Of a DNA stretch of 64,000 bases, positions 221 to 63,923 are shown piece by piece (positions within the stretch are counted from its first letter, which is position 1; each line of letters starts with the position of its first letter). The notes under the pieces are model-generated. The model made no database searches and was not told the DNA's origin. It worked only from the letters and a program-made list of their open reading frames with translations. This DNA is from Hydrogenivirga caldilitoris (lineage in GTDB: Bacteria > Aquificota > Aquificia > Aquificales > Aquificaceae), in the NCBI RefSeq assembly GCF_003664005.1, contig NZ_RCCJ01000001.1:1178001-1242000 (forward strand). The letters run 5' to 3'. A program made the translations under genes and the position numbers.

Positions 221-249
221 TTTACTTGGACTATTTTAAGTTATATATT
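221..249 (+). promoter_or_regulatory. Promoter of the 86-aa gene
   Basis: TTTACT (221-226) and TATATT (244-249) are separated by 17 bp. The -10 hexamer ends 7 nt before the ATG at 257, and there is no Shine-Dalgarno sequence, so the message would be almost leaderless. Confidence 0.5.
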
Positions 250-256
250 TATCAGT

Positions 257-517
257 ATGGCAAAGAAGAAGGAAGAACTCAAGGTTGAGAGTTTAGAAGA
301 GGAAGTTCAAGAGTTAAGGAAAAGCCTTTTTGGTATATTTGAAGCGCTACTACCACCCAAGGAGGTCAGGGAAGAGGTTTTGAAAAACCTTTATACAATT
401 GAACTTTCCTTTTTAAAGGTCTTTAAAACCCTGCTTGATTATCAGGTTGAGAGCTTAGAGCATAAGATTGAGAAAAAGAGCTCCAGAAAGAGGGCTCAGA
501 AGATAGAAGTTGAATAG
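257..517 (+). CDS. Small Lys/Glu-rich coiled-coil protein, function unknown
   Basis: This 86-residue protein is highly charged. Residues 8-25 and 60-80 look helical and coiled-coil-prone, and the middle (about 25-60) is more hydrophobic (FGIFEALLPP and FLKVFKTLLDY). It has no signal peptide and no cysteines, so it is probably a cytosolic helical protein. I do not recognise a family. Its stop codon abuts the stop of the opposing amrS gene without a gap. The start is supported by a promoter-like pair just upstream. Confidence 0.7.
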   Translation: MAKKKEELKVESLEEEVQELRKSLFGIFEALLPPKEVREEVLKNLYTIELSFLKVFKTLLDYQVESLEHKIEKKSSRKRAQKIEVE

Positions 518-1537
518 TTAGAACCTCCCCTTTATCTCGTAGCCACATCTTCCACAGCTGCCGTTTACCAGGTCTATGTCCGTAATCAGGTAACCTCTCC
601 TCCCTATCACCTTGTTCCCACACTTTGGACAGAATGTGCTCTCGTGGTCATTTCCGAAGACGTTCCCTACAAAAACATACTCTAACCCAGCTTCCTTACC
701 TATCTGATACGCCCTTTCAAGCTCCTGTATAGGCGTTGGTGGAAGGTCCTTAGCTTTATAATGGGGGAAGAACCTTGATAAATGCCAGGGAACCCACGGA
801 GCAAGCTCATCAGCTATCCATCTGGCTATTCCCTTTAACTGCTCTTCGTCAAGATAGTTGGGAACCAAAAGGGTTGTAAGTTCAACCCACTTTCCCCTTT
901 CAAAGACATACTTTATCGTGTCTAAAACAGGTTGTAATCTACCCTTTGAATACTTTCTGTAAGAATCGTCAGAGAAAAACTTTAGGTCTATGCTGTAAGC
1001 ATCCATGTACCTGTCTATTTCCTCAAGGGGTTCACGGTTTATGTACCCAGCTGTGACCATTATGTTTTTAAGCCCTTTTTCCTTAGCGAGTTTTGCCACA
1101 TCAATCATATACTCAGCAAATATGGTGGGGTCTGAGTAAGAGTAAGATATACTCTCACATCCCTGTTCAAGGGCTTTTTCAACTACCAATTCAGGAGGGA
1201 CATTGGTACTGACGAAGAAAGTGTTCTGGATTACTTCACCCTTTGGAACCTGGGAGATCTCCCAGTTCTGGCAACCCTTACAGTGTAGGTTACATCCAGG
1301 TGTGGCTATCGTCAAAGTCCCATGTCCCGGGTAAAAGTGGAAGAGGGGCTTCTTCTCAACAGGGTCAATAGCTGCAGAGATTACAGAGCCGTACGTGTAA
1401 GTGTAAAGCTGACCCCCATGGTTTACCCTCACTCCACAGGAACCTACCTGTCCATCCTTCAACTCGCATTTTACGGGACAGAGGTAACATTCAACCTTCC
1501 CGTTTATAGGCTTCCAAAACTTGGCTACCGTTTTCAT
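518..1537 (-). CDS. amrS: Radical SAM enzyme of the AmmeMemoRadiSam type (AmrS)
   Basis: The 339-residue protein has an N-terminal cysteine pair (CYLCPVKC, about residues 18-25), then the radical SAM signature CNLHCKGC near residue 82 that binds a 4Fe-4S cluster and S-adenosylmethionine, and a C-terminal zinc-ribbon-like CPKCG...CGRCG (about residues 305-332). This layout matches the AmrS family, once annotated as pyruvate formate-lyase activating enzyme-like. Its partners AMMECR1 and Memo are not in the window and its substrate is not settled. The ATG at 1537 is preceded by TATATT (1551-1546) with an 8-nt gap and no ribosome binding site. Confidence 0.9.
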   Translation of the reverse strand: MKTVAKFWKPINGKVECYLCPVKCELKDGQVGSCGVRVNHGGQLYTYTYGSVISAAIDPVEKKPLFHFYPGHGTLTIATPGCNLHCKGCQNWEISQVPKGEVIQNTFFVSTNVPPELVVEKALEQGCESISYSYSDPTIFAEYMIDVAKLAKEKGLKNIMVTAGYINREPLEEIDRYMDAYSIDLKFFSDDSYRKYSKGRLQPVLDTIKYVFERGKWVELTTLLVPNYLDEEQLKGIARWIADELAPWVPWHLSRFFPHYKAKDLPPTPIQELERAYQIGKEAGLEYVFVGNVFGNDHESTFCPKCGNKVIGRRGYLITDIDLVNGSCGRCGYEIKGRF

Positions 1538-1677
1538 TATCTAATAATATAAAGCTTAAATAATTTTAGTCTAGTCCTATAAAAGATATGCGTTTAACCC
1601 CACCTATCTCTATAACATTCCCAAGGTTCAGCTGAGGAGCGTAGGTGGTCTCACAACTTTAATGTAAAATACTTGGC
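1538..1677. promoter_or_regulatory. Divergent intergenic region amrS / glyQ
   Basis: These 140 bp separate two divergent genes. On the minus strand TATATT (1551-1546) lies 8 nt before amrS. On the plus strand TAAAAT (1665-1670) lies 7 nt before glyQ. I see no T-box or other leader RNA before glyQ; the leader would be only a few bases long. Confidence 0.4.
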
Positions 1678-2520
1678 ATGTATTTCCAGGAGATAATCAT
1701 GAACCTGCACCGCTTTTGGGCGGACAAGGGTTGTTTGATATGGCAACCTTACGATGTAGAAGTTGGAGCCGGGACAATGAATCCCGCCACCTTCCTCAAG
1801 GTTCTCGGCAAAAAGCCCTGGAACGTAGCCTACGTTGAACCCTCCAGAAGACCTCAAGACGGCAGGTACGGGGAGAACCCAAACAGACTCCAGCACTACT
1901 ACCAGTTTCAGGTGATACTGAAGCCTGCCCCGGAAGATCCGCAGGGCATATACCTTGAGAGTCTTGAAAAACTTGGTATAAACGTTTCTGACCACGATAT
2001 AAGGTTCGTAGAGGATGACTGGGAGTCTCCAACCCTTGGGGCGTGGGGACTCGGATGGGAGGTGTGGCTTGACGGCATGGAGATAACCCAGTTTACCTAC
2101 TTCCAGCAGTCTGGAGGATTGGACCTTGACGAGATTTCAGTTGAGATAACCTACGGTTTAGAGAGGATAGCTATGTACATTCAGGAAGTAGACAGCGTGT
2201 TTGACATAGAATGGAAGGAGGGAGTAACCTACGGAGAGATATTCAAGAAGGCTGAGTGGGAATGGAGCACCTATAACTTTGAGAAGGCTGACACCGATAT
2301 GCTCTTTAACCTCTTTGAGCTTTATGAAAAGGAATCCAGAAGACTTATAGAAGAGGGACTTGTGTTGCCGGCTTACGATTACCTTCTTAAATGTTCTCAC
2401 ACCTTCAACCTCCTTGATGCTAGGGGTGCCATCTCCGTTCAAGAGAGGGCAAGGTACATAAGAAGGATGAGCAACATGGCTAAGGAAATAGCCCAGCTCT
2501 ACCTTGAGCTTATGCAGTAA
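1678..2520 (+). CDS. glyQ: Glycyl-tRNA synthetase alpha subunit
   Basis: This 280-residue protein is the catalytic alpha subunit of the bacterial tetrameric (alpha2beta2) glycyl-tRNA synthetase, which charges tRNA-Gly. Family signatures are unmistakable: [48 protein letters not shown] and [15 protein letters not shown]. Length is normal for the family. glyS follows 13 bp after the stop, so the two subunits are made from one operon. The ATG has no Shine-Dalgarno sequence but a -10-like TAAAAT 7 nt upstream. Confidence 0.97.
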
Positions 2521-2533
2521 TATATTGTTAGCG

Positions 2534-4534
2534 ATGGGTGACCTCCTCATTGAAATCGGGACAGAAGAGCTTCCCTCCTCGGTTATAGTTCCTGCACTTG
2601 ACTTTTTCAAGGGTAAGTTTTCGGAGATTTTAGGTAGAGAAGATATAGATACTTACGGTACACCCAGGAGGCTTGTGTTTCACATTAAAGACTTTACCGA
2701 TACAAAGGAAGTTAAGGAAGAGTTGGTGTTTGGTCCCCCCTGGGCAGTTGCCTTTGATGGAGAGGGAAAACCCACAAAGGCTTTGGAAGGTTTCCTGAAC
2801 AGATACGGTGTAGGTCCTGAAAGAATAGTAAAAGAGAGGAAAGGAAAGGGGGAATACGCGGCTTTAAGGATAATTCACGAAGAAAAAAGCAGGCTTGAGC
2901 GCCTTAAAGAAGAATTTGAGGAGCTTCTCCTTTCAGTACCTTTCCCGAAGCGAATGAGATGGACATCTTCAAAAAAGATTACCTTCTCAAGACCGGTGAG
3001 GTGGATTCTCGCCCTGCATGGAGACAGGGTGGTTGAGCTCAGGTTTGGAGAGTTGTCTTCAGGCAATAAGACCAAGGGGCACCGATTTCTCTCAAAAGGT
3101 TGGATAGAAGTACGGAAAGCTGAGGATTACTTCCATCTTATGGAAGACAATTTTGTAATACCGTCTCTTGATAGAAGGAAGGAGCTTATACTTAAAGGTA
3201 TAAAAGAGGAAGCCAAGAAGCTTGGAGCGGAGCCTAAATACCCTGATGGACTCCTTGATGAGGTTGCCAATCTTGTTGAATATCCCTTCGTAGTTACGGG
3301 CGGTTTTGAGGAAAAATATCTTGAACTACCTGAAATGGTGATAATAACCGTTGCAGCCCACCACCAGCGATTCTTCTGTCTGTCCAGAGAAGGGAAGCTC
3401 ATAAATCGCTTTATAGGTATAAGCAATAACACTCCCAAAACAGACCTGATAAAAAAGGGGTATGAAAAAGTTTTAAGAGCAAGACTTGAAGATGCCCTAT
3501 TCTTCTACAGAGAAGACCTGAGAACCCCCCTTGAAGAGCTTGTTCCAGCACTCAAAAACGTACTTATACACCCCAAGATAGGTACGGTTCTTGAAAAGGT
3601 TGAAAGGTTAAAGAGGATATCAAAGGAACTCTGTAGAAAGCTGGGATGCGATAAAGCTACGGAAAGAAGGGTTGAGAGGGCTGCCCTCCTATCAAAGGCT
3701 GACCTTCTCACAGAGATGGTAAAGGAGCTTGACGAGCTTCAGGGATACATGGGATACGTTTACGCCCTGAAACATGGTGAGGACGAAGAGGTTGCAAAGG
3801 CTTTATACGAGCAGTACAAGCCTAAGGGGGTGGAGGATACAGTTCCCCAGACACTCACGGGTGCAATCCTTTCCCTATCTGATAAGATTGACGACCTTAT
3901 AAGCTTCTTCTCCGCTGGAGAGATACCAAAGGGCAGTTCAGACCCGTTCGGTCTCAGAAGGGCAGCTTTTGGTGTATTTAGAATCCTTGAAGACAAAGGA
4001 TGGGATATTGACCTGAGGGAGTTCTTTCCCCTTTATCCAGAGGTTAAGAACACAGAAGAGCTGGAAAGGTTTCTTGCCCAGAGGTTGGAAAGCTATCTTG
4101 AAAGGTACGGTTACGATATCATAAGGGCGGTTCTCAAAGCTGAGAGTCCATTTAAGCCTTACAGTGTAATGAAAAAGGTTAAAGAACTGAGCAGGGTCAG
4201 GAACACCGAAGCGTTTGTGGATATATACGAAGGATACAGAAGAGTTGTTAAAATATTACCCAAGGAGTGGGAGAACTTTGAGGTGAACGAGGAGCTCTTA
4301 AAGGAAGCCCAGGAGATAAACTTATGGAGAGAGGTGAGGGAGTTGGAAGGAAGGGACTTTACCCTTGAGGAACTTGCAGGTCTCAGGAAACCCATAGATG
4401 AGCTCTTTGATAACGTCCTTATCATGGATAAGGATGAAAACATAAGAAACAACAGGCTGTCTCTACTAAACAGAGTTAAAAGACTGTTCAATAGATATGC
4501 TGACTTAAGTGAGGTAGTTTTGCAGGAGGTTTAG
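2534..4534 (+). CDS. glyS: Glycyl-tRNA synthetase beta subunit
   Basis: The 666-residue product is the beta subunit that binds tRNA in the alpha2beta2 glycyl-tRNA synthetase. It starts with the family hallmark LIEIGTEELPSS, contains PFPKRMRW and the FSRPVRWIL stretch, and ends in a helical anticodon-binding-like domain (about 560-660). The ATG at 2534 was preferred to an in-frame codon at 2504 because the hallmark begins four residues after it. A TATATT (2521-2526) lies 7 nt before it, so an extra promoter between glyQ and glyS is possible. ppsA starts 1 bp after the stop. Confidence 0.96.
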   Translation: MGDLLIEIGTEELPSSVIVPALDFFKGKFSEILGREDIDTYGTPRRLVFHIKDFTDTKEVKEELVFGPPWAVAFDGEGKPTKALEGFLNRYGVGPERIVKERKGKGEYAALRIIHEEKSRLERLKEEFEELLLSVPFPKRMRWTSSKKITFSRPVRWILALHGDRVVELRFGELSSGNKTKGHRFLSKGWIEVRKAEDYFHLMEDNFVIPSLDRRKELILKGIKEEAKKLGAEPKYPDGLLDEVANLVEYPFVVTGGFEEKYLELPEMVIITVAAHHQRFFCLSREGKLINRFIGISNNTPKTDLIKKGYEKVLRARLEDALFFYREDLRTPLEELVPALKNVLIHPKIGTVLEKVERLKRISKELCRKLGCDKATERRVERAALLSKADLLTEMVKELDELQGYMGYVYALKHGEDEEVAKALYEQYKPKGVEDTVPQTLTGAILSLSDKIDDLISFFSAGEIPKGSSDPFGLRRAAFGVFRILEDKGWDIDLREFFPLYPEVKNTEELERFLAQRLESYLERYGYDIIRAVLKAESPFKPYSVMKKVKELSRVRNTEAFVDIYEGYRRVVKILPKEWENFEVNEELLKEAQEINLWREVRELEGRDFTLEELAGLRKPIDELFDNVLIMDKDENIRNNRLSLLNRVKRLFNRYADLSEVVLQEV

Positions 4535-4535
4535 T

Positions 4536-7975: not shown

Positions 7976-7978
7976 GAG

Positions 7979-9328: not shown

Positions 9329-9338
9329 GGTGAGAACC

Positions 9339-11293: not shown

Positions 11294-11294
11294 G

Positions 11295-11702: not shown

Positions 11703-11713
11703 ACTAAATCCTC

Positions 11714-12715: not shown

Positions 12716-12718
12716 GCT

Positions 12719-17556: not shown

Positions 17557-17615
17557 ACCTGAACCTCCACGCTTCTAAGGAAAGGATACAGAGGTTCTAT
17601 GAAAGAATCGTGAAC

Positions 17616-19218: not shown

Positions 19219-19346
19219 CTCCCAAAATTCTAATATATTTGAGATACTTAAAATATAAACCCGTGACACTTGACATCTATCATAACTGGGTTGTGGCACA
19301 AACAGATATTTATACTTGTAGAATTTAAAAATTAGGAGGTGCTGAA

Positions 19347-19814: not shown

Positions 19815-19815
19815 T

Positions 19816-23037: not shown

Positions 23038-23071
23038 CAGGATTAATATTTTAAACCTACAATGAGGAACG

Positions 23072-23101
23072 ATGACAAACAAATATCCCGAGGAATATAA
23101 T
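23072..23101 (+). promoter_or_regulatory. hemA promoter
   Basis: ATGACA (23072-23077) and a perfect TATAAT (23096-23101) are 18 bp apart. The start codon at 23112 is only 10 nt downstream of the -10 hexamer, so the transcript should begin within about 4 nt of the ATG. No Shine-Dalgarno sequence is present. Confidence 0.65.
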
Positions 23102-27146: not shown

Positions 27147-27809
27147 TCAATATATAACAGGTATCTCCTCTTTTATGGTTATCTCTTCCAGATTGACCCT
27201 GCACACAAAGGCTCTGACAGTGAAACCCATACTGGAGAATCTTTTAAGGGCTTCTGAGAAAACCGGGTCCATGGTTTTGTTAGGTGTAAATCTCAGGGCG
27301 TCTTCTCTCTGGACTATAAATACAATTTCAGGTTTGTAAGTGTCAGCACTGCGTATAAGTTCCTCTACATGTTTACTACCTCTTGTAGTTGGTGCGTCCG
27401 GAAACATCGCCGTACCATCAATAACCAGGTTTACTGACTTGGTCTCCACCAAAATTCTTTTGTTTATGAGAAGGTCCAACCTTGAAGTCCCAACCCTGAA
27501 CTCGTACTTGTAGTCTAAGAGCTTCCATGGATAACCTGTTTTGAGGGCGTACTCAACTAGAAGTTTTGGCGGCAGGTGAGAGTCAACACATACAAGAGTT
27601 TTATCTAGTCTGACAAGAAGTAGCTCATATCTGTATTTGCCTCCCTCCTTATACCGCAGATATACCTCCCTGCCGGGAGTGAGTAACTCCTTCAATCTCC
27701 CTGTATTTCTTATAAGGACTTTCTCCAGTTTGTCATTCAGATTCACAAGACATACAAACCTGTTCAAACGTTCTACAAAGGTTGCAGGTGTCAGCTCTCC
27801 CAACTCCAT
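27147..27809 (-). CDS. sfsA: SfsA-family protein
   Basis: A 220-residue SfsA protein: an N-terminal OB-like part (about 12-80) followed by a PD-(D/E)XK nuclease-like domain with FRVGTSRLDLLI, ILVETKSVNLV and AMFPDAPTTRGSKHVEEL. The family was first described as a sugar fermentation stimulation protein and probably binds DNA; its role is still unclear. Its first base coincides with the last base of the upstream sigma-54 activator gene. Confidence 0.9.
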   Translation of the reverse strand: MELGELTPATFVERLNRFVCLVNLNDKLEKVLIRNTGRLKELLTPGREVYLRYKEGGKYRYELLLVRLDKTLVCVDSHLPPKLLVEYALKTGYPWKLLDYKYEFRVGTSRLDLLINKRILVETKSVNLVIDGTAMFPDAPTTRGSKHVEELIRSADTYKPEIVFIVQREDALRFTPNKTMDPVFSEALKRFSSMGFTVRAFVCRVNLEEITIKEEIPVIY

Positions 27810-29347
27810 TAAAACTTCTTTATTTCTATACCGTACTTCTTTATACGATAATCAAGCTGTCTGAGCGTGTAGCCTAGAAGCTTAGCAGCTCTGGATTTCA
27901 CATAACCTGTTGTTTCAAGGGCTTCTATTATCTTCTCTCTCTCAGAGGCTTGAAGCCTGTCGGGCAGGTTTGAAAGTCCCTCAAGGGCAGTCCGCCTACG
28001 GTAGGCGAGTATGTGGGGCGGGAGATCTTGACTTCTCACCGTGCCGTCATGCATCACGACAAGCCTCTCAACTGCGTTTTCAAGCTCCCTTATGTTTCCA
28101 GGCCAGTTATACTCTACCAGAGCTTCTACAGCGTCCGGGGATAGTCTGACCTTTTTCCCATATCTGGAGTTGTAGGTCTGGAGGAAGTGTTCCAAGAGTA
28201 AAGGAATATCTTCTTTGCGTTCTCTGAGGGGAGGCACATGGACCGGAACTACGTTAAGTCTGTAATAAAGGTCCTCTCTAAACTTTCCTTCATTCACAAG
28301 GGTATGGAGATTTTTATTTGTTGCCGCTATTATACGGACATCAACTCGTATCGTCTTTTCCCCACCAAGTTTTTCTATTTCTCTATCCTGCAAAACTCTG
28401 AGTATCTTTGCCTGTAGAGTAAGAGGCATATCTCCAATTTCATCAAGGAAGACCGTACCACCGTCTGCCAGTTCAAACTTTCCCTTCTTTGGGCTTTGAG
28501 CTCCCGTAAAGGCTCCCCTCTCATAACCAAAGAGCTCTGCCTCTAAAAGGGTCTCCGGTATAGCTGCACAGTTTATTGTTATAAAAGGTTTGTCCTTTCT
28601 GCGGCTGAGGAAGTGTATAGCTTTGGCTATCAGGCTTTTACCTGTGCCACTCTCACCAGTTATTAGTATGGTACTGTCTGTAGCAGCAGCTTTCTTCACC
28701 AATTCAACGAGATTAAGAATCGCATCACTTTGACCAACTATGCCGTGTATGCTGTAGTTTTTTTTGAGCTCCTCCCTCAGTGCCCTTTTCTCTTCCTCCC
28801 ATTCAAGCCTTTCCTCTTCCACCCTTTCGCTGAGCCTGTAAAACATACCTATGAGAGTTCCCAGTATCATAAGGGTCTCTATTCCGCTCTCAACACTCTC
28901 ACGGGATGAGAAGGTCTTGAATACGGAAAGGGTACCTACTATGTCTCCTCCTACCTTTATAGGAACAGATATAAAGGTTTCATTTCCTGTAAGTTTGCTT
29001 CCTATCTTCGTTTTATTCAAGAAAGCGGGGTTTGAAAGTACATCTGTTAAAACTACGGGTATTCCGCTCTTAAACACTTTACCTGTTATTCCCTCACCTT
29101 TTTTAAATATACCCCTCTTTATCTCCTCCTCAGAGAAGCCAAAAGCTTTCACTATTTGAAGTGCTTTCAATTCTCTGTTAAATATGGCTACAAAGCTAAG
29201 GTTCACATCCCAGAAGGAATACAGGACCTTCAATATGTCCCTAACCGCCTCCTCAAAGTCAAGAGTTCTACTGAGGACCCTTGCAACTTCGTTGACTATT
29301 GTAATCTCTTTGGTCTCTAAACTTTTTCTTCCCTTAAGGGTTTTCAT
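27809..29347 (-). CDS. NifA-like sigma-54-dependent activator
   Basis: The 512-residue regulator has a GAF domain (about 20-165), a central AAA+ domain (about 205-430) with Walker A GESGTGKS, the sigma-54 contact loop GAFTGA, Walker B GGTVFLDEIGD and the arginine-finger region, and a C-terminal Fis-type helix-turn-helix (about 470-512, AAKLLGYTLRQLDYR). It activates sigma-54 promoters by ATP hydrolysis; the GAF ligand is unknown. The start at MKTLKGRK (29347) excludes a 38-codon extension that would read through the tRNA-Ala gene. No sigma-54 promoter (GG-N10-GC) stood out nearby. Confidence 0.9.
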   Translation of the reverse strand: MKTLKGRKSLETKEITIVNEVARVLSRTLDFEEAVRDILKVLYSFWDVNLSFVAIFNRELKALQIVKAFGFSEEEIKRGIFKKGEGITGKVFKSGIPVVLTDVLSNPAFLNKTKIGSKLTGNETFISVPIKVGGDIVGTLSVFKTFSSRESVESGIETLMILGTLIGMFYRLSERVEEERLEWEEEKRALREELKKNYSIHGIVGQSDAILNLVELVKKAAATDSTILITGESGTGKSLIAKAIHFLSRRKDKPFITINCAAIPETLLEAELFGYERGAFTGAQSPKKGKFELADGGTVFLDEIGDMPLTLQAKILRVLQDREIEKLGGEKTIRVDVRIIAATNKNLHTLVNEGKFREDLYYRLNVVPVHVPPLRERKEDIPLLLEHFLQTYNSRYGKKVRLSPDAVEALVEYNWPGNIRELENAVERLVVMHDGTVRSQDLPPHILAYRRRTALEGLSNLPDRLQASEREKIIEALETTGYVKSRAAKLLGYTLRQLDYRIKKYGIEIKKF

Positions 29348-29386: not shown

Positions 29387-29460
29387 GGGGACGTAGCTCA
29401 GACCGGGAGAGCGCCGCCCTCGCACGGCGGAGGTCGGGGGTTCAAATCCCCTCGTCTCCA
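29387..29460 (+). tRNA. tRNA-Ala (anticodon CGC)
   Basis: The 74-nt sequence folds as a standard cloverleaf. Acceptor GGGGACG pairs with CGTCTCC and contains the G3-U70 wobble that identifies alanine tRNA. The anticodon stem is CCGCC/GGCGG around loop CTCGCAC, giving CGC, which reads GCG. The T-arm is GGGGG-TTCAAAT-CCCCT. The discriminator is A73. The 3' CCA is not encoded. Confidence 0.95.
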
Positions 29461-33016: not shown

Positions 33017-33062
33017 AACGGAGAGGTATTATAGCATAAGTCCTGTGGTAAAATCTTTGCTC
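33017..33062. promoter_or_regulatory. Bidirectional promoter atpG / ilvE
   Basis: Only 46 bp separate the two start codons. For atpG the minus strand reads TG-C-TATAAT (hexamer 33033-33028), an extended -10 box, 11 nt before the ATG. For ilvE the plus strand reads TG-G-TAAAAT (33049-33054), also extended, 8 nt before the ATG. Any -35 elements would lie inside the opposite gene's promoter or coding region. Confidence 0.6.
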
Positions 33063-35064: not shown

Positions 35065-35076
35065 TATATTAGGCTC

Positions 35077-36642: not shown

Positions 36643-36665
36643 AGCTAAATGATAAATTTAAATCC

Positions 36666-36761
36666 ATGGGTAAGTTCCTGCGCTTTCTTTTAGCCTGTGC
36701 CGGCTGTATAGGTTTTGCTGTAATTTTGTACCTGCTCCTCCATCTGGCAGGTATAATTTAA
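36666..36761 (+). CDS. Possible 31-residue single-span membrane microprotein
   Basis: An ATG at 36666 opens a 31-codon frame to TAA at 36759-36761. It encodes a short basic start (MGKFLRF) then a continuous hydrophobic helix with two cysteines (LLACAGCIGFAVILYLLLHL). The frame fills the gap between divergent rfaE2 and the alcohol dehydrogenase gene, and its last codons overlap the -10 hexamer of that gene. No ribosome binding site is visible. A chance frame in an AT-rich spacer is a real alternative. Confidence 0.3.
   Translation: MGKFLRFLLACAGCIGFAVILYLLLHLAGII
36752..36757 (+). promoter_or_regulatory. -10 element of the Fe-alcohol dehydrogenase gene
   Basis: A perfect TATAAT at 36752-36757 lies 11 nt before the ATG at 36769. 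No Shine-Dalgarno sequence lies between. Confidence 0.5.
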
Positions 36762-38438: not shown

Positions 38439-38448
38439 GAAGTGGATA

Positions 38449-38925
38449 TTATAGCCTTATCCTACCTTTGAACTCCCTCTCAAGCTCTCTTTTCACAGCT
38501 TTCTCTTTGAGTTCCTGTCTCCTATCATAGAGCTTTTTACCCTTCACAAGGGCTATCTCCACTTTAACCTTCCCGTTCTTCCAATAAAGCCTGAGTGGGA
38601 TTATCGTATAGCCCTTTTCCTGGGACTTACCCAGAAGCCTCATTATCTCCCTCTTATGGAGAAGAAGCTTCCTCTTCCTCAGAGGGTCTGGAGGTTTTAT
38701 GGTAGCGAATCTGTAGGGTGATATGTACAGATTATAGAGCCAAGCTTCACCGTTGTCTATACGAACAAAGCTGTCTTTAAAGGAGACGTTGGCTTTGCTT
38801 CTGAGAGACTTAACCTCAGGACCTTCAAGGGCTATACCTGCTTCATACTTCTCAATTATCTCATACTTAGCCCTTGCCTCTCTATTCTCGGCTATTGGTA
38901 CAACTTTATCCGCCTTCTTTGTCAT
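38449..38925 (-). CDS. smpB: SsrA-binding protein SmpB
   Basis: The 158-residue SmpB binds tmRNA and rescues stalled ribosomes. Marks are ENREARAKYEIIEKYEAGIALEGPEVKSLR, KDSFVRIDNGEAWL and YDRRQELKEKA near the C-terminus. The start at MTKKADK (38925) excludes a 12-codon extension that would read into tRNA-Arg. The gene lies 9 bp after the tRNA, suggesting a joint transcript. tmRNA itself was not seen. Confidence 0.95.
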   Translation of the reverse strand: MTKKADKVVPIAENREARAKYEIIEKYEAGIALEGPEVKSLRSKANVSFKDSFVRIDNGEAWLYNLYISPYRFATIKPPDPLRKRKLLLHKREIMRLLGKSQEKGYTIIPLRLYWKNGKVKVEIALVKGKKLYDRRQELKEKAVKRELEREFKGRIRL

Positions 38926-39055: not shown

Positions 39056-40075
39056 TTACAACTTATTGGAAAGCTCTATAAACTCCTCCAACTTTCTCTT
39101 AGCCTTACCGCTGTCTATGGATTCTCTTGCCATTTCAAGAGCCACCTTCCTATCTTCCACTTTCCCCGAGGCAAGTATACCGAAGGTTGCGTTCAACAGA
39201 ACTATATCCCTGTGAGGACCCTCTTCTCCCTCCAGAACGGAGAACCCAACCCGGAAGCTCTCCTCTGGAGAGGTTATGCAAATCTGAGCAAGCTCTTTCC
39301 TCTGAATACCCAGTTCCTCGGGTATAAACTCGTAAAGCTTGACCTCCCCTCTGTCCACCTCACCTATGAGGGTTGCATCGGATATGGAAACCTCATCTAT
39401 GCCGTCCTTTCCATGTACAACAAAGGCTTTTATTATCCCAAGCCTGTTTAGAACCTGGGATAACTTGTCTACCAATTTATCCGAGAAGACTCCAAGTATC
39501 TGTCTCTTCGCACCGGCAGGGTTTGATAGGGGTCCAACCAGGTTAAATATTGAGCGCACACCGACCTCTCTCCTAGGACCTATGACTCTCTTCATAGCAG
39601 GATGGAAGAGAGGAGCGAACATGAAACCTATACCTATCTCCTCTATCATCCTTGCCACCTTCTCAGCAGGGAGGTCTATCTTTGCCCCTGTCTGCTCAAG
39701 GAAGTCGGCACTCCCGCATCTTGAGGACACAGAACGGTTTCCATGTTTTGCCACACGAATGCCAGCTCCGGCAACAACAAAGGCAGTCACTGTAGAAACG
39801 TTGAAGGTGCCGGACTTGTCTCCTCCGGTACCACACGTATCCACAAGCTCGTCGGGAGCTGAAACCTCTACCCTGGTTGCCCTCTCTCTGAAAAATCTCC
39901 CCGCTCCTTCAATCTCATCAATGGTCTCACCTTTCATCTTAGTGCCCATTATGAAGGCACCTATCTGGGCATCCGTAGCTCCGCCATCCACTATCTCTTC
40001 AAGAGCTCTGTACATATCCTCAGCAGAGAGGTTCTCTCCCTCTGAAATTCTGTGGAGTATTTCCCTCATATCCAT
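39056..40075 (-). CDS. trpD: Anthranilate phosphoribosyltransferase
   Basis: The 339-residue enzyme joins anthranilate to phosphoribosyl pyrophosphate in tryptophan synthesis. DTCGTGGDKSGTFNVST binds the pyrophosphate; KHGNRSVSSRCGSAD and the later GPRREVGVRSIFNLVGPLSNPA are family marks. Other trp genes are not adjacent. The start may be at 40075 or the third codon (40069). TATAAA lies 8 nt before the first. Confidence 0.95.
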   Translation of the reverse strand: MDMREILHRISEGENLSAEDMYRALEEIVDGGATDAQIGAFIMGTKMKGETIDEIEGAGRFFRERATRVEVSAPDELVDTCGTGGDKSGTFNVSTVTAFVVAGAGIRVAKHGNRSVSSRCGSADFLEQTGAKIDLPAEKVARMIEEIGIGFMFAPLFHPAMKRVIGPRREVGVRSIFNLVGPLSNPAGAKRQILGVFSDKLVDKLSQVLNRLGIIKAFVVHGKDGIDEVSISDATLIGEVDRGEVKLYEFIPEELGIQRKELAQICITSPEESFRVGFSVLEGEEGPHRDIVLLNATFGILASGKVEDRKVALEMARESIDSGKAKRKLEEFIELSNKL

Positions 40076-40091
40076 GGCTAAATTTTATAAC
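40076..40091. promoter_or_regulatory. 16-bp divergent start region trpD / coaBC
   Basis: If coaBC starts at 40092, only 16 bp separate the two start codons. The minus strand carries TATAAA (40089-40084) 8 nt before trpD, and the plus strand TAAATT (40079-40084) 7 nt before coaBC, so the two -10 candidates overlap. Confidence 0.4.
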
Positions 40092-41267
40092 ATGAAGCTT
40101 CTTGAAGGAAGAAAGGTGCTCTTAGGCATCACCGGCGGTATAGCTGCTTACAAGGTTGCTCAACTTGTAAGGGAACTGAGAAAAGCTAAGGCTGAAGTCA
40201 AAGTCATAATGACTCCCTTTGCTGAGAGGTTCGTGGGAAAGCTTACCTTCGCAACCCTCTCCGGAAACAAGGTTTACACAGACTCCAGTTGGGAAGAAGA
40301 ACCCTTAGCCCACATAAACCTCGCCCGCTGGGCTGAGGTGCTTCTTCTCGCACCCTGCACGGTGAACACCCTTTCCAAACTCGCCTTAGGTCTTGGGGAT
40401 AATCTGCTCACTACGACGGTTTTAGCTTACAACGGAACGCTACTCATAGCTCCAGCAGCCAACACGGTTATGTATAAAAACGCAGCTGTGCAGGAAAACC
40501 TCAAAAAGCTCAAGGAAAGAGGTGTGATAGTGATAGAACCGGAGTGGGGAGTCCTTGCCTGTGAAGAGGAAGGGGAGGGAAAACTCGCAAGTGAAGACAG
40601 GTTGATAGATTGGGTCATCTGGTCTTTTTACCCCAAACTACTTTTAGGTAGGAGAGTCTTGATAACCTGTGGCTCCACACGAGAGTACATTGACCCCGTC
40701 AGATTCATTTCCAACGACTCAAGCGGTGAAATGGGTTTTTCACTCGCAAGGGCGGCAAGGTGGCTGGGAGCTGAAGTGAAGGTAATAGCCGGGCATACAA
40801 CCGCCAAAGAACCCCCCGAAGTTGAAATAGAGAGGGTTGTGAGCTCGGAAGACATGCTCAAAGCCGTTCTTAGAGAATTTGAAGAAAGCGATATAGTTAT
40901 AATGAACGCCGCTGTTGCGGATTACAAGCCTAAAGAGGCAAAGAAAGGAAAGATTAAGAAACAAAGCTCCCTTACCCTTGAGCTTGAGAAAACAACCGAT
41001 ATACTCGCGGAGCTTGGGAGAAGAAAAAAGCACCAGATGCTGGTGGGATTCGCCCTTGAAAGTGAAAATCTCCTTGAGAACGCTATGGAAAAGCTAAAGA
41101 GAAAGAACCTTGACTTGATAGTTGCCAACCCGGTTGACGTCATGGGGGCAGTTCACCACAGAGGTTATCTGATAGACCCAGAGGGTTATAAGGAGTTTGA
41201 GTTCAAAACAAAGCTTGAGAGTGCAGAGTTTATCTTGAAGACTATCTCGGAGTTCATATCTTCCTAA
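40092..41267 (+). CDS. coaBC: Bifunctional CoaBC of coenzyme A synthesis
   Basis: The 391-residue protein couples phosphopantothenate to cysteine and decarboxylates the product. The flavin-binding CoaC half (1-180) starts GITGGIAAYK and carries the active-site His in AHINLARW and APCTVNTLSKLA; the CoaB half (about 185-391) has VLITCGSTREYIDPVRFISNDSSGEMG, MNAAVADYKPK and VANPVD. An in-frame ATG at 40074 is less likely since it would overlap trpD. The open frame reaches much further upstream without support. Confidence 0.95.
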   Translation: MKLLEGRKVLLGITGGIAAYKVAQLVRELRKAKAEVKVIMTPFAERFVGKLTFATLSGNKVYTDSSWEEEPLAHINLARWAEVLLLAPCTVNTLSKLALGLGDNLLTTTVLAYNGTLLIAPAANTVMYKNAAVQENLKKLKERGVIVIEPEWGVLACEEEGEGKLASEDRLIDWVIWSFYPKLLLGRRVLITCGSTREYIDPVRFISNDSSGEMGFSLARAARWLGAEVKVIAGHTTAKEPPEVEIERVVSSEDMLKAVLREFEESDIVIMNAAVADYKPKEAKKGKIKKQSSLTLELEKTTDILAELGRRKKHQMLVGFALESENLLENAMEKLKRKNLDLIVANPVDVMGAVHHRGYLIDPEGYKEFEFKTKLESAEFILKTISEFISS

Positions 41268-41940
41268 GGTCAATATAAGAGCCACTCTCAAACTCCCTTA
41301 ACTTTGGTAGGCTCTCAAATATGAGTTTTGCTGTCTCTTCAGGGGTTTTCTTTGGTGACTCAATTATCCTCTTTACAGAGGGAAAGCGCTCTGAATCCTG
41401 CTTCATAACCTCCTCAAGCATAGGTGTAAGGACCAATCCGGGAGCGAGAGCGATTATGTGGGTGCCCTCCATTTCACGGGAGTATAACTTCAGCAGGCAG
41501 TTTAGAGAAGCTTTTGATAAGGCGTAGGCGTTCCAGCCTCTGTTGCAGTTAACAGAAGCTCCTGAAGATATACCCACTATGCTTTCAACCCTTATTCCCA
41601 TAGCCATCAAAGAGTCAAGTATCACTTTGTTTGCCCAAACGTTTACGTTCATAACTTCCTGAAATCTGTGGAGGGGTACCTCATGCATATCCCCAAATTC
41701 GCCCAAAATACCGGCGTTAAGTATAACAAGGTCTAAGGAGGATGTTCCCTCAAGCAGCTTCTGTAATCTTTGGTATACCCTCTCAAGCTCTCTCAGGTCA
41801 GCCTTAACGAACTTGACCTTTCCCGTGAGCTCTTGAGGCATATGTCTGCTCAGGGCATAGACTTCATATCCCCTTTTCAGGGCTTCCTCAGCCAGTGCCT
41901 TTCCAAGACCCGAACCTATACCGGTTATTAAGAGCTTCAT
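41254..41940 (-). CDS. Short-chain dehydrogenase/reductase
   Basis: A 228-residue Rossmann-fold oxidoreductase. The nucleotide loop is TGIGSGLG (residues 5-12), NAG motif ILNAGI and active-site Y-x-x-x-K in YALSKASL are present, with Ser in GISSGASV. The substrate is unknown. It is translationally coupled to the upstream HepT-like gene (ATGA overlap) and overlaps coaBC by 14 bp at the 3' end. Confidence 0.9.
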   Translation of the reverse strand: MKLLITGIGSGLGKALAEEALKRGYEVYALSRHMPQELTGKVKFVKADLRELERVYQRLQKLLEGTSSLDLVILNAGILGEFGDMHEVPLHRFQEVMNVNVWANKVILDSLMAMGIRVESIVGISSGASVNCNRGWNAYALSKASLNCLLKLYSREMEGTHIIALAPGLVLTPMLEEVMKQDSERFPSVKRIIESPKKTPEETAKLIFESLPKLREFESGSYIDLRKI

Positions 41941-42818
41941 CCTCTAACTCCCCCCTTACTGAGCAGGTCCTTAAGGCTCTTTGATATCTCCTTAACTATG
42001 GCGTCAAACTTCGGATTGAGTTCTTTAAGGGTGCTATAGAGCTCTTCAGGTGGAACTTCCCAAGTGCTTATAAGCTTATTCTTCAAATTGGTTAGTTTAA
42101 AAACATCCATATAGTACTCCTGGGGTATGACTCCTGCCTCAACCAGCTTGGAGAGACAGTCATCTCCAAACCTCTTGACACCAAACTTAGGAGCTAGATG
42201 CTTGCATATATCAAACAGCGAATCGTAAGCAACCTGGTAGAAGTACTTTACCCTGTCGTAGTACATGGGTTTAGACTTGAACTCGGCATAACCCTGCTGC
42301 AGAACAAAGTCTATCTTCTTCACCGACTCCTTTATGAACTTGGATTTCTCATTTAACAGGTCAAAGTCTATAAGAAGGTAGTTCCCTGTTGTTTCCTTTA
42401 TGTAGTTAATAACAGCTCTAGCGTATTCCTTGAACATACTCAGGTTTTCTTTAAGAAAACGGTAGAGCTCTTCCGGAGACACTGCTTCCTTAAGGTCTCT
42501 ATATTTGAAATAGAACTCGGTAAAATCCTGAAGCTTGTCAACCTCCTCCATACCTATATGTTGAGCGAGTTTAACGAGGCAATCCTTGGAGGAGGTCTTT
42601 AAGCCTAAAACGCTGGACATGTGCCTACACACCCTCATAGAGCTTTCAAAGGCTAAGTTGAAATCAATTCTAACCCTATCAAGAACAAGCTTATTACTGA
42701 CGAATTCGTCTTCGGGCAGGGCTATATGCTTTTTCAGGTCAACGTAGGACTTCTCCAGGTTTTGAAAAGCTTCAACTATCAAACTTATCTTGAAACCCTT
42801 TTTCTTAACTCCGGACAT
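41937..42818 (-). CDS. Tandem HepT/DUF86-like protein with degenerate active sites
   Basis: The 293-residue protein consists of two related helical repeats, about 10-140 and 152-285. Residues 64-90 (CRHMSSVLGLKTSSKDCLVKL...) align with 205-230 (CKHLAPKFGVKRFGDDCLSKL...) and the PEELYRFLKEN and PEELYSTLKEL segments also align. Each repeat follows the HepT/DUF86 plan (helix, FG.K, C-L-KL, then the RN-x-LVH toxin segment, PEELY). The HepT catalytic R-x(4-6)-H is lost: FKYRDLKEAVS in repeat 1, LTNLKNKLIST in repeat 2. No MNT-type antitoxin is adjacent. The function is unknown. Confidence 0.7.
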   Translation of the reverse strand: MSGVKKKGFKISLIVEAFQNLEKSYVDLKKHIALPEDEFVSNKLVLDRVRIDFNLAFESSMRVCRHMSSVLGLKTSSKDCLVKLAQHIGMEEVDKLQDFTEFYFKYRDLKEAVSPEELYRFLKENLSMFKEYARAVINYIKETTGNYLLIDFDLLNEKSKFIKESVKKIDFVLQQGYAEFKSKPMYYDRVKYFYQVAYDSLFDICKHLAPKFGVKRFGDDCLSKLVEAGVIPQEYYMDVFKLTNLKNKLISTWEVPPEELYSTLKELNPKFDAIVKEISKSLKDLLSKGGVRG

Positions 42819-42886
42819 CGTGCTTTAGAATAAAGGAGATAAAAGAGCAAGTCAAATGATGGGGGTCAATGACCTTACGCATGGTA

Positions 42887-45410: not shown

Positions 45411-45416
45411 TATAAT
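45411..45416 (+). promoter_or_regulatory. -10 element of bamA
   Basis: A perfect TATAAT ends 9 nt before the GTG start of bamA. No ribosome binding site lies between; transcription would start about 2-4 nt before the GTG. Confidence 0.5.
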
Positions 45417-45425
45417 ACGTTCTCT

Positions 45426-47759: not shown

Positions 47760-47774
47760 CCTATATTATTCTTC

Positions 47775-49693: not shown

Positions 49694-49702
49694 GGTTATT
49701 CA

Positions 49703-50824
49703 TTATATCAGGCGCTTTTTACTCGCATACCAGAACAGGATGAGTCCAAGGATAGGAAAGGCTGCCATCAGGCATGCCGATAAAGGAAAGTTATTGTCAG
49801 TCAGGAGGAGAAAGGTGCCCCAGAGAAAAAGACCGGTTGTGGACGCAACCCTTTCCGTAAGGGACAGGAAAGACAACCTGATGGAGGCTTCCCCTTCGGG
49901 GAACTCGCTCAGTATAAGTACCCGGGATGTAGTCCATACATGAGCCAGAGATAAGCCAGCCCAAAGACCCCACACGAGGAGGAGGGATTTTGGAGCTAAA
50001 GGTAAGCTTGCAAGGAAGAGGGTCCATAAAAGGAAACCTAACGGAAACACCCTCCTGACTCCGAAGAGGTCGCTCAACTTACCCCATAGCAGACCTCCTA
50101 AAATTCCGCCAAAAGCTGAAAACCCTATGACTCTGTAAATCTCAACCCTATCTAACAGGTAAACCTCTTTAAGGTACACACCCATCATGGCAACCAGCGT
50201 GTTGGCAACTTCCGTAACGGTAAGTATGGACAGTATCAGTAGCAGGAAACTCCTATCTCTGAAAACCTCTTTCACACTGACCTCACTCCTGTGGTGAGGG
50301 TTCTCCAGTCTGATTACAGAGGGGAGAAGCAGCACAAAAAATATACCAGCTACTACGAAGTAAACCTCTGGTTCTTTAAGCTTATCTGCTAGAAAGATCA
50401 GTGCGAGAGCGGAACCCACATAACCGAGGGCAACGCCGAGACCGGAGGTAAAGCCCCTATACTCAAAGTCAAGGAGTAGAGAGTTATAAAAGACGAAAGC
50501 TTGCTGATGAGCCACAGCCATAAGGAGGAAGAAGAAAAGGGCAAGTGCAGGGTAGGGTAAAGATAGCCCCACAGAGATACATAAAAGAACCACAAGGATG
50601 CCAAAAATGGTAAAGAAGGGCTTTCTAAGGGCTCTTCTGTCTGCTTCCTTGCCAAGATAAAGGGCTAACAGAAAGGAAAGGAGAAAGGAAAAGCCGTAGA
50701 AAAAGCTATAGAGGGAGGGACTTATATGTTGAGTTATGTAAAGGGGGAAGAAGGTAGAAAACACGAGGGCACCGAGGATAGTCTCCCCGGTGTCAAACAA
50801 TCCAAAGGAAAGCTTCTTTATCAC
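49703..50824 (-). CDS. Major facilitator superfamily transporter
   Basis: The 373-residue protein has about eleven or twelve transmembrane segments and the loop motif GKEADRRALRKPFF between helices 2 and 3, as well as GKLSDLFGVRRVFP in the second half. It resembles the UMF1/Atg22-like branch of MFS transporters. The substrate is unknown. It overlaps gltB by 4 bp and is translated after it, so a link to amino acid transport is possible but unproved. Confidence 0.87.
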   Translation of the reverse strand: MIKKLSFGLFDTGETILGALVFSTFFPLYITQHISPSLYSFFYGFSFLLSFLLALYLGKEADRRALRKPFFTIFGILVVLLCISVGLSLPYPALALFFFLLMAVAHQQAFVFYNSLLLDFEYRGFTSGLGVALGYVGSALALIFLADKLKEPEVYFVVAGIFFVLLLPSVIRLENPHHRSEVSVKEVFRDRSFLLLILSILTVTEVANTLVAMMGVYLKEVYLLDRVEIYRVIGFSAFGGILGGLLWGKLSDLFGVRRVFPLGFLLWTLFLASLPLAPKSLLLVWGLWAGLSLAHVWTTSRVLILSEFPEGEASIRLSFLSLTERVASTTGLFLWGTFLLLTDNNFPLSACLMAAFPILGLILFWYASKKRLI

Positions 50825-55320: not shown

Positions 55321-55412
55321 ACCTCACGCAGAAAGTATATATAATATACTCCCTAACGCTCTTTTATGACGAAACTCCTTCCCCCTGGAACCTGAGAGTA
55401 TATTATTTTCCT
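55321..55412. promoter_or_regulatory. Divergent region gltB / MIP18 gene
   Basis: In 92 bp the minus strand carries a TATATTATATATACT stretch (about 55335-55350) upstream of a Shine-Dalgarno-bearing gltB leader, and the plus strand has TATATT (55399-55404) 8 nt before the MIP18-family gene. No operator is recognised. Confidence 0.35.
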
Positions 55413-56800: not shown

Positions 56801-56845
56801 TTGATAAAAAATCTTATATTATCTTCAGTTGTTTGGAGGTGTGAG

Positions 56846-59083: not shown

Positions 59084-59415
59084 CTTGCAATGCCCTAAAG
59101 AAAGAGAGGGATTGCGACCCGTCCACGTCCTCAATCCACAGCCCCCCTACGATCCTCTTGCAATGCCCTAAAGAAATGGAGGGATTGCGACCGTATACTG
59201 CGCCCTCTTGTCTTAGGGAAATAAAACCTTGCAATGCCCTAAAGAAATGGAGGGATTGCGACATAAGAAAGTCAGCGTTTTAGCTACTGAGATAAAACAT
59301 TTAGCTTGCAATGCCCTAAAGAAATGGAGGGATTGCGACCTGAGGTTCATTTTTCTTATTTCATCAATCATATCAGAAGACTTGCAATGCCCTGAAGAAA
59401 GAGAGGGATTGTCTC
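59084..59415 (+). CRISPR. Small CRISPR array, five repeats and four spacers
   Basis: Repeats of 35 bp start at 59084, 59157, 59228, 59305 and 59381. Spacers are 59119-59156 (38), 59192-59227 (36), 59263-59304 (42) and 59340-59380 (41). The consensus has an internal dyad GCAAT-g-CCCT...AGGG-ATTGC, and ends GGGATTGCGAC. That end and the TTGCAA start match my recollection of the type III repeats of Thermus thermophilus, whose crRNA tag is ATTGCGAC. The middle three repeats are identical; the first and last share GAAAGAGAGG instead of GAAATGGAGG, and the last also loses its end. No cas gene lies in the window. Confidence 0.93.
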
Positions 59416-59443
59416 ACAGGTTTTCTTTCCTATACATAAATGA

Positions 59444-61263: not shown

Positions 61264-62062
61264 TCTTCTTCCTCCAGCTCATTATTATCTCCGTTACCAC
61301 AGCCGCTTTCTTTGGGTCCATTGCAGCGAGTATCTGCCCAGCTTGACGCTCCTTAAGTCTTATAAGTATCTCAGCTGCTATGTGGGGTTTGACCTCATTC
61401 AGGATAGCACCCGCTTCATCTGCCGGGGTTTTGCTGACTATACCTATAAGTTTCTCAACCTCCTTCTCCTCTTCCTCCGTTAAAGGTCTCTTTCTGAGAG
61501 CTTCAAGCCTCTCCCTCTCTTCAGTTAACTTCTTAAGTTTCTCCTCTATAACCTTCTCAAGCTCCTTTAAGCGTTTCTCCTGCTGACTGCTTTCCATCTC
61601 TTTGAGCTTCTCTTGCACGGCACTCTGGGCAAAGGTAAGGAGTGAGAATAGAAGCAGAAGCTTAAAACCCTTTTTAAATAGCTGGATTAAACCAATCTGC
61701 AGAAACTCCCTCTTCAAACTGTTGGCGTAATCCTCATAGGCTATTTTATCTTTCAGTATCTTTACGGCTCTCTCTTCCCTCTTGAGCTCCTTCAATCCCT
61801 CGGCTTCTTTCTCTTTGAGGCTTTCAAGCTCCTTTATCTTATTTTCAACACTCTCTATCTTCTGAACAAAAGCTTTCTGTTGAAAAATCAGCCTCATAGC
61901 TTCTTGAGACTTAACAAGCTGCTCCTGGCAGAGCTTTAACTCTTCCTCATACTTTCTCTTCTCTTCAAGGAGACTTCTTATCTGCTCCTCTATATCTTTC
62001 AACTTCCTTGATTTTTCCTTCTCTTCAATCTTCTTTATACGCAGAATTCTTTTCAGGTTCAT
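61247..62062 (-). CDS. FliJ-MotE-like fusion protein
   Basis: The 271-residue protein has a long N-terminal coiled coil (about 10-120) like the flagellar export chaperone FliJ, a hydrophobic span at about 133-147 (GFKLLLLFSLLTFAQSA), a second coiled coil (150-190) and a MotE/MgtE-N-type helical domain (about 198-262, with VSKTPADEAGAILNEVKP and LIRLKERQAGQILAAMDPKKAA). Topology would put FliJ in the cytosol and MotE in the periplasm. The junction looks like a former MotE signal peptide. No other flagellar gene is nearby. The N-terminal assignment is less certain than the C-terminal one. Confidence 0.68.
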   Translation of the reverse strand: MNLKRILRIKKIEEKEKSRKLKDIEEQIRSLLEEKRKYEEELKLCQEQLVKSQEAMRLIFQQKAFVQKIESVENKIKELESLKEKEAEGLKELKREERAVKILKDKIAYEDYANSLKREFLQIGLIQLFKKGFKLLLLFSLLTFAQSAVQEKLKEMESSQQEKRLKELEKVIEEKLKKLTEERERLEALRKRPLTEEEEKEVEKLIGIVSKTPADEAGAILNEVKPHIAAEILIRLKERQAGQILAAMDPKKAAVVTEIIMSWRKKSAQNR

Positions 62063-62637
62063 CTTATCTTCTCCAGCAGCAGTGAGAGGTCTTCTCTTGT
62101 GTTCATGTTTATAAAGGAAGCCAATTCTGGGTCAACAGGCTTTACACTTTCTTCGGTGATAACCTTACAGGGGACGTTTTCAAGGAAACCTACAAGACTT
62201 CTCTTGCCAAGGGCTATATACTCTTCAAGAGCCTTCAGAATTTCTGTTGAGTATATAGCCGTCAGAGGGTAAAGCTTTCCATTGATTGAAAACAAGGTGA
62301 CAGGCGAGCTATAGCTATCCATAAGCAGTTTTAATACCTCTTTCTTTACAAGAGGCATATCTCCGGTCAGTATTAGAACCTCCTTTGAACCTGAACTCTT
62401 CAGGGCTGTATAAACACCCACTATGGGTGCCTGAAAAGGAAGTAAATCCTCAAGGACAGGGATATGTAAGTCTTTAAACTTTTCCCTGTCCTTTGCAACT
62501 ATGAATACCTTATCGCATACCTTCTGAGCTTCCTCAATTATGTAATCTATAGTTCTCTTTGAACCGAGCTTATACAGAATCTTGTCCTCTCCGAACCTCC
62601 GACTCTGACCCCCTGCAAGGATAAAACACTCCATCAC
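62059..62637 (-). CDS. mobA: Molybdenum cofactor guanylyltransferase
   Basis: The 192-residue enzyme attaches GMP to molybdopterin. ILAGGQSRRFGEDK is the N-terminal nucleotide loop, and LTGDMPLVKKEVL contains the metal Asp. It would serve molybdenum or tungsten oxidoreductases. It overlaps the downstream fliJ-motE gene and the upstream transglycosylase gene by 4 bp each, so the three form one unit of unrelated functions. Confidence 0.93.
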   Translation of the reverse strand: MMECFILAGGQSRRFGEDKILYKLGSKRTIDYIIEEAQKVCDKVFIVAKDREKFKDLHIPVLEDLLPFQAPIVGVYTALKSSGSKEVLILTGDMPLVKKEVLKLLMDSYSSPVTLFSINGKLYPLTAIYSTEILKALEEYIALGKRSLVGFLENVPCKVITEESVKPVDPELASFINMNTREDLSLLLEKIR

Positions 62638-63869
62638 TCTTTAATATATAAGACCGCACCGTTACTGAGGGTAATCATCTTAGTTTTAACGTTAAAATCT
62701 TCCCCAACTCCTTTGATAACTATCCTCTCACTTCCCCTCTCAGGGGGCTTCTTATGAGTTTTTCCCTTTTTGGCTCTATTGACTTTACCTTTTAAAGTGG
62801 GTTTAGTTTTTACCTCAACCACAGGTTTAGGAGTTATAACTTTTGCAACCTTCACAGGCCTGGGCTTGGTTTCTTTACTTTCCTCTTTCACTCTCTCAGG
62901 TGGCTTTGTTTCAGTCCTCCTGGACTCAGGGAGAGGTTTAGAAAATACTCTCTGAGGTACGTCGGTAATTAAGGGAGCGCTTGCCAATTTTATATCCACC
63001 TTCTCAGGTAGGTAAACGTAAGTACCAGCGGGTATGTAAGAACCCTTGATGTGGGGGTTGAGGTCCTTGAAGGTACTCTCTTTTATGCTGAGTTTTTCAA
63101 CAAAGCTCCTGACCTTCTCCGGCTTATCAACAACCTTTTTCTGAATGTTAAGGCTATCCAGGTCAACATTTATACCGTACTTATGGGGAGACTTAGCGAT
63201 AAGAAGAGCAGCGAAGAACATCGGGACATATTTTCTCGTTTGCTCAGGTAAAGCCCACTTAGACCTCCAGAAGTCAACACCTTTTGTCCTTCTGCTTACG
63301 CAGCCCTCCCCGCAATTATACGCTGCAAGGACAAGCTCCCAGTTTCCAAAGAGCTCATGAAGGTCCTTCAGGTATTGGGCGGCAGCACGGGTGGATTTGA
63401 CAAGGTCAAAACGCTCATCAACTTTTCCGTCCACTCTAAGACCGTACCTCTTGGCGGTAAAGGGCATAAGCTGCCATATACCACCTGCTCCTGACCTTGA
63501 AAGGGCAAAGGGGTTAAAACCACTCTCTATAAAGGGGAGAAGCGCAAGCTCCTCAGGCAGACCGTACTCTTCAAGTATAGGTTTTATGTAGGGTATGTAA
63601 AGGTTTGCCCTTTTCAGAGCTATTTCCAGACTTCTCTTATCCCTCAAAAAGTAAATCAGATGTTCTTGTACCTCTTTCCTGTTGGGAAAGTTTATCCCCA
63701 ACTTCTGGGCTTCCTGGTTTATGAACCTATCTTCCTCCTCCGCAAAGAGGAACTTCCCTTCCTTAACTATGACGATATCCTTTTTCCCTTTATAGAGAGC
63801 TACCTCCTTCACCGTGGGCGTACACCCAGCAAGAAAAAACGTTCCCACCAAGAGTAAGAGTTTCTTCAT
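62634..63869 (-). CDS. MltD-like lytic transglycosylase lipoprotein
   Basis: The 411-residue protein starts MKKLLLLVGTFFLAGC, a lipoprotein signal with Cys16. The SLT domain (about 80-240) has the catalytic Glu in LPFIESGFNP and the motifs SRSGAGGIWQLMPFTAKRYGL and AAYNCGEG. A LysM-like repeat (about 248-292, FKDLNPHIKGSYIPAGTYVYLP) and a Pro/Lys-rich linker (about 310-375) follow. It cleaves peptidoglycan at the membrane. The ATG at 63869 was preferred to an in-frame TTG two codons upstream. TATAAT (63883-63878) lies 8 nt before it. Confidence 0.9.
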   Translation of the reverse strand: MKKLLLLVGTFFLAGCTPTVKEVALYKGKKDIVIVKEGKFLFAEEEDRFINQEAQKLGINFPNRKEVQEHLIYFLRDKRSLEIALKRANLYIPYIKPILEEYGLPEELALLPFIESGFNPFALSRSGAGGIWQLMPFTAKRYGLRVDGKVDERFDLVKSTRAAAQYLKDLHELFGNWELVLAAYNCGEGCVSRRTKGVDFWRSKWALPEQTRKYVPMFFAALLIAKSPHKYGINVDLDSLNIQKKVVDKPEKVRSFVEKLSIKESTFKDLNPHIKGSYIPAGTYVYLPEKVDIKLASAPLITDVPQRVFSKPLPESRRTETKPPERVKEESKETKPRPVKVAKVITPKPVVEVKTKPTLKGKVNRAKKGKTHKKPPERGSERIVIKGVGEDFNVKTKMITLSNGAVLYIKE

Positions 63870-63923
63870 CCTCAATAATTATAAGCTTCGGAAGAAAACC
63901 AAAAGTTTATAATTTTACTTACC
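63870..63923. promoter_or_regulatory. Bidirectional promoter mltD-like / hemL
   Basis: Fifty-four bp separate the divergent starts. TATAAT occurs on the minus strand (63883-63878, 8 nt before the transglycosylase ATG) and on the plus strand (63908-63913, 10 nt before hemL). Neither start codon has a usable Shine-Dalgarno sequence. Confidence 0.55.

Follow-up and report, generated by a model that had tools for sequence, protein, structure and literature searches.

A clade-limited -10-like signal directly before start codons in Hydrogenivirga caldilitoris points to leaderless transcription

Many genes of Hydrogenivirga caldilitoris carry a hexamer resembling the -10 promoter element TATAAT directly before the start codon, lack a Shine-Dalgarno sequence, and share this arrangement with relatives up to a sharp family-level limit within the phylum, a limit that is new here. 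Leaderless transcription, with leaders of 0-5 nt, from sigma70-type promoters is very probably the right reading of this pattern.

The analysis started from a window of 64,000 nt (bases 1178001-1242000) of a genome in one contig of 1,753,429 bp, which was joined with 20 evenly spaced 20-kb stretches of the same genome to a sample of 464 kb (GC ~46%) with 476 called starts. A simple home-made gene caller set the starts, using only codon statistics and the type of start codon and ignoring upstream motifs, and some of the called starts are wrong. Genes were classed as (i) transcript-leading, where the upstream neighbour diverges or, if co-directional, ends more than 40 nt away (206 in the 464 kb), or (ii) internal, at most 15 nt behind the neighbour. 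The hexamer rule allowed at most one mismatch to TATAAT with A2 and T6 fixed, by which the middle positions are partly imposed; the gap was measured from the end of the hexamer to the start codon, expected counts came from dinucleotide shuffles, and a Shine-Dalgarno match of at least 5 nt was called strong.

Hexamers close to start codons in the window and across the genome

The sequence-only reading had listed 19 starts in the window at which a -10-like hexamer ends 6-11 nt before the start codon, and all 19 were located and confirmed (Table 1). Eight are perfect TATAAT, as it had stated (hemA, atpG, Fe-ADH, yqhA, bamA, aroD, the mltD-like gene and hemL), ten have one mismatch and one, before the HepT-like gene, has two; the gene names fit Pfam where the full gene lies inside the window. 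The reported lack of a Shine-Dalgarno sequence also held, with a match of at least 5 nt in none of the 18 listed genes scored. The claim that 18 of the 19 begin a transcription unit was overstated, because glyS, yqhA, thiD and aroD follow a co-directional gene at 9-15 nt (glyQ at 13 nt, smpB at 10 nt, bamA at 15 nt and an MFS gene at 9 nt, respectively).

Table 1. Hexamers close to start codons in the window; the last three are absent from the sequence-only reading
Hexamer	Position	Strand	Gap (nt)	Gene and start codon	Remark
TATATT	244..249	+	7	86-aa protein, ATG 257	
TATTAT	1544..1549	-	6	amrS, ATG 1537	
TAAAAT	1665..1670	+	7	glyQ, ATG 1678	
TATATT	2521..2526	+	7	glyS, ATG 2534	directly after glyQ stop; same in G020
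TATAAT	23096..23101	+	10	hemA, ATG 23112	kept at 7-9 nt in family homologues
TATAAT	33028..33033	-	11	atpG, ATG 33016	
TAAAAT	33049..33054	+	8	ilvE, ATG 33063	
TATATT	35065..35070	+	6	lolA, ATG 35077	
TATCAT	36649..36654	-	6	rfaE2, ATG 36642	
TATAAT	36752..36757	+	11	Fe-ADH, ATG 36769	
TATAAT	38448..38453	-	9	yqhA (UPF0114), ATG 38438	overlaps smpB stop codon
TAAAAT	40082..40087	-	6	trpD, ATG 40075	at 7-8 nt in five family homologues
TATTCT	42827..42832	-	8	HepT-like gene, ATG 42818	two mismatches
TATAAT	45411..45416	+	9	bamA, GTG 45426	
TATATT	47762..47767	+	7	thiD, ATG 47775	
TATAAT	49702..49707	-	8	aroD, ATG 49693	overlaps/abuts stop codon of preceding MFS gene
TATTAT	55401..55406	+	6	MIP18-type gene, ATG 55413	
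TATAAT	63878..63883	-	8	mltD-like gene (SLT domain), ATG 63869	
TATAAT	63908..63913	+	10	hemL, ATG 63924	gene runs off the window; name from the sequence-only reading
TAGAAT	19227..19232	-	8	response regulator, ATG 19218	
TAAAAT	23048..23053	-	10	ATG 23037	
TATATT	62643..62648	-	8	MobA-like gene, ATG 62634	inside a gene run

Counted blind to motifs, the window alone has a hexamer with at most one mismatch at 6-11 nt in 19 of 64 called starts, compared with counts of 4, 4 and 1 in adjacent 6-nt bins; these 19 overlap with the listed 19 but are not identical to them. For glyQ and lolA the motif-blind caller preferred a start further downstream, and homology backs the upstream starts: the alignments of GlyQ with family homologues begin at residue 1, and the LolA domain begins at residue 30 of the longer form.

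Three further observations concern single loci of the window. The HepT-like protein (41937-42818, minus strand) apparently comprises two HepT-like domains in tandem, at residues ~22-133 (weak, E 1e-4, just below the Pfam cut-off) and 162-278; PADLOC gave no match for this protein. The genes trpD (minus strand) and coaBC (plus strand) diverge at 40073-40092, their start codons overlapping in CATG if coaBC starts at 40074, which would place the promoter of trpD within coaBC; coaBC has an alternative in-frame start, the ATG at 40092. A tRNA-Ala gene with anticodon CGC (29387-29460, plus strand) lies just upstream of, or overlaps, the start region of the opposite-strand gene at 27809-29347.

The peak at 6-11 nt that the sequence-only reading had predicted for a genome-wide count of hexamers by distance, in first and internal genes, was found. 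Among the 206 transcript-leading genes of the 464 kb, 66 have a hexamer with at most one mismatch at this distance against 10.4 expected (Poisson P ~1e-30), and 24 have perfect TATAAT against 1.2 expected; internal genes have 29 against 5.4 expected. The edges are sharp at 6 and ~11 nt, with gaps of 0-5 nt at or below background and counts dropping again from a gap of 12 nt; the hard lower edge fits leaderless promoters, since a promoter less than 6 nt from the start codon would begin the transcript inside the gene. Across the whole genome TATAATN{4,11}ATG occurs 178 times, the reversed pattern 69 times. When all ATGs near gene starts are considered independently of the called start codon, the hexamer at 6-11 nt precedes 77 of 306 in-frame ATGs (25%) and 13 of 264 out-of-frame ATGs (5%).

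Promoter features, Shine-Dalgarno sites and alternative readings

Among transcript-leading genes, two position classes of -10 box can be told apart, at 6-11 nt without a Shine-Dalgarno sequence and at 24-35 nt with one, boxes being fewer at the distances in between; the farther class fits leaders of ~17-28 nt, long enough for a Shine-Dalgarno site. In the 464 kb, a strong Shine-Dalgarno match is present in 1 of the 63 transcript-leading genes with a close hexamer and in 58 of the 143 others; ~30% of transcript-leading genes have one. The two classes bear out the suggestion that two initiation modes coexist, with a match of at least 5 nt in none of 43 genes whose hexamer lies at 6-8 nt, compared with 33 of 40 whose hexamer lies at 24-35 nt.

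Two other features of the flanking sequence fit promoters. A purine at the transcription start is usually preceded by a pyrimidine, and if the A of the ATG is the first transcribed base, a pyrimidine is expected at -1. In f1, the family taken here as Aquificaceae because the nearest relatives of hemA carry the labels Aquificaceae and Aquifex, a pyrimidine stands at -1 in 144 of 179 genes with a hexamer at 6-8 nt (80%), compared with 215 of 441 Shine-Dalgarno genes (49%; P = 1.6e-13). A TRTGN-like flank (extended -10) precedes the -10 box in putatively leaderless and leadered promoters of f1 alike. Counting against the promoter reading, a -35 element with at most two mismatches to TTGACA is only weakly enriched, occurring at spacings of 16-18 in 19% and at other spacings in 10-15%.

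The sequence evidence as a whole suggests the following mechanism: (i) the hexamers would be -10 elements of ordinary sigma70-type promoters; (ii) with the usual 6-8 nt from the -10 box to the first base, the transcript would begin either with the start codon or 1-5 nt upstream, and the mRNAs would thus be leaderless; (iii) translation would follow the known leaderless route, in which a ribosome with initiator tRNA recognises the 5'-terminal AUG; and (iv) about a third (~30%) of transcript-leading genes would use this mode, and a minority of genes inside runs would carry a close promoter of their own, which in part reaches into the preceding gene's end or its stop codon. Against this account, the gaps of 9-11 nt imply either a leader of 1-4 nt or a longer discriminator. 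Mapped 5' ends of leaderless mRNAs are known for some members of Deinococcus-Thermus and Actinobacteria, whereas here we infer the actual 5' ends and the engagement of the ribosome from sequence. The genome-wide peak and the near-exclusion of strong Shine-Dalgarno sites both support the leaderless proposal of the sequence-only reading.

It is very unlikely that the AT-rich box is instead a translation element, an unstructured or ribosomal protein S1-binding part of a longer leader, with no promoter function. Nakagawa et al. (2017, PMC5397173) raised such an option for biases towards A and T between -20 and -10, and full-length bS1 genes are present; against it speak the specific hexamer, the flat background at 0-5 nt, the pyrimidine at -1, the promoter-type TRTGN flank and the family f2, whose bS1 matches are equally long yet come without the signal. 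Similarly improbable is a secondary role for real promoters, in which the main transcript of many of the genes would start upstream with a leader or arise mainly by read-through from the neighbour: glyS, yqhA, thiD and aroD do lie close behind co-directional genes, but most of the genes lack the Shine-Dalgarno sequence on which a leadered main transcript would presumably depend. Leaderless transcription accounts for the close hexamers better than either of these.

Distribution within the phylum and earlier predictions

The other genomes of the phylum were sampled at 35-120 kb each, the family f3 through pooled small contigs only, and two f1 genomes of genus g8 (G053 and G051) have too few genes to be judged singly. 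Presumably f2 is Hydrogenothermaceae and f5 Desulfurobacteriaceae, and we take G001, G030, G070 and G114 to be perhaps Aquifex aeolicus, Hydrogenobaculum, Persephonella marina and Thermovibrio ammonificans, all of these as leads only. In a scan of 118 phylum genomes, TATAATN{6,8}ATG outnumbers its reversed form in almost every f1 genome and in each of the nine f1 genera, weakly in some single genomes such as G003 and G004, and shows no consistent excess in f2, f3, f4 or f5. The f3 signal, missed by this perfect-TATAAT scan, was found by the one-mismatch test, its hexamers being less perfect. Transcript-leading genes carry the signal in 162 of 529 cases in f1 (30.6%), 13 of 66 in f3 (19.7%) and 14 of 329 in f2, f4 and f5 together (4.3%), with P = 7e-24 and 8e-5 for f1 and f3, respectively. 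The tree of GlyS and TrpD places f3 beside f1 and leaves f2, f4 and f5 outside, with support of 100 for the split of f1 and f3 from the rest and 85 for f1 monophyly, from two proteins only.

AT-rich intergenic DNA, start choice or the TAA stops of preceding genes are highly improbable as artefactual sources of the signal. The gene caller is home-made, and in 29 of the 64 internal f1 cases the upstream stop codon shares bases with the hexamer. Yet dinucleotide shuffles give 10.4 hexamers against the 66 found, the ATG-frame test, which is free of called starts, agrees, and the signal is rare in f2, f4 and f5 (14 of 329 leading and 5 of 260 internal genes), families that use the same stop codons and of which several have a higher AT content.

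We lean towards leaderless transcription as a clade-level trait, present throughout f1 and its sister f3 and absent from the sampled f2, f4 and f5, which belong to the same order or class; this would require one gain on that branch or one or more losses elsewhere, and no evident change of bS1 or bS21. Neither protein follows the signal: bS21 is present in all 22 genomes, while f1, f2 and f3 all have a full-length bS1. The bS1 protein is short in f5 (G097, G106 and G114), with ~340 aa covering model positions 1-341 of 516, and gave no clear match in G096 of f4.

Leaderless genes in Aquificae have been known in kind since a prediction of 2011, which answers how far they are documented in Aquificales, the question that the sequence-only reading had left. 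Zheng et al. (2011, PMC3160421) classed the genes of 953 bacteria, found leaderless genes in two of five Aquificae (20.7% and 32.4%) and used Aquifex aeolicus VF5 as a figure example; two of five would agree with the family boundary. The genes described here resemble their TA-led genes, with a TAtaaT-type signal ~10-12 bp before the start beside Shine-Dalgarno genes, but come from a different genome, sampled rather than whole, and the present analysis adds the family boundary, the two position classes of the -10 box, the pyrimidine at -1 and gene-by-gene conservation. As in Deinococcus-Thermus and Actinobacteria, a -10 box stands directly before the start of a large fraction of genes without Shine-Dalgarno sequence; the signal in those groups is a loose TAnnnT (PMC3160421), whereas here perfect TATAAT alone is found 24 times against 1.2 expected. 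Nakagawa et al. (2017, PMC5397173) reported a U/A bias near -10 in non-Shine-Dalgarno genes of Aquificae and left open whether it reflects promoters or S1 binding. In their genome comparison of Aquificales, Lechner et al. (2014, PMC4227106) describe the Shine-Dalgarno and -10 motifs of the order and acknowledge help with differential RNA-seq; the word "leaderless" is absent from the main text. No published 5'-end map for Aquificota was found in the literature.

A leaderless model is needed for annotating the start sites of Aquificaceae genes and for expressing these genes in other hosts. Close families that differ so sharply offer a natural setting for asking which ribosome, initiation-factor or promoter features accompany leaderless initiation, and likewise whether the mode is ancestral or acquired.

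Conservation of single sites and promoters inside gene runs

The signal is commoner at f1 leading genes than at internal ones (31% versus 12%) and is not exclusive to the former: 64 of 554 internal genes in f1 have it (12%), compared with 5 of 260 in f2, f4 and f5. Of these 64 hexamers, 29 overlap the stop codon of the gene before, 21 fall within its reading frame and 14 come after its stop; yqhA and aroD are examples from the window. The same stop codons occur in f2 and f5 without the signal, which is thus no by-product of TAA. Together with the clade-level trait, as one joint reading that we moderately favour, the leaderless mode in f1 would let a promoter sit in the end of the preceding gene and would make run-together genes separately transcribable.

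Gene-by-gene comparison shows conservation of the hexamer itself. The hemA TATAAT is kept in ten relatives with 65-89% protein identity, and the DNA upstream of it differs; the trpD hexamer recurs in five f1 genomes. For glyS, a close -10 box is found in its own genus and in G001, and Shine-Dalgarno-like sites in some other relatives. The genes glyQ and glyS are adjacent in the H. caldilitoris genome and ~855 kb apart in G001; the close -10 box of glyS is present in both genomes.
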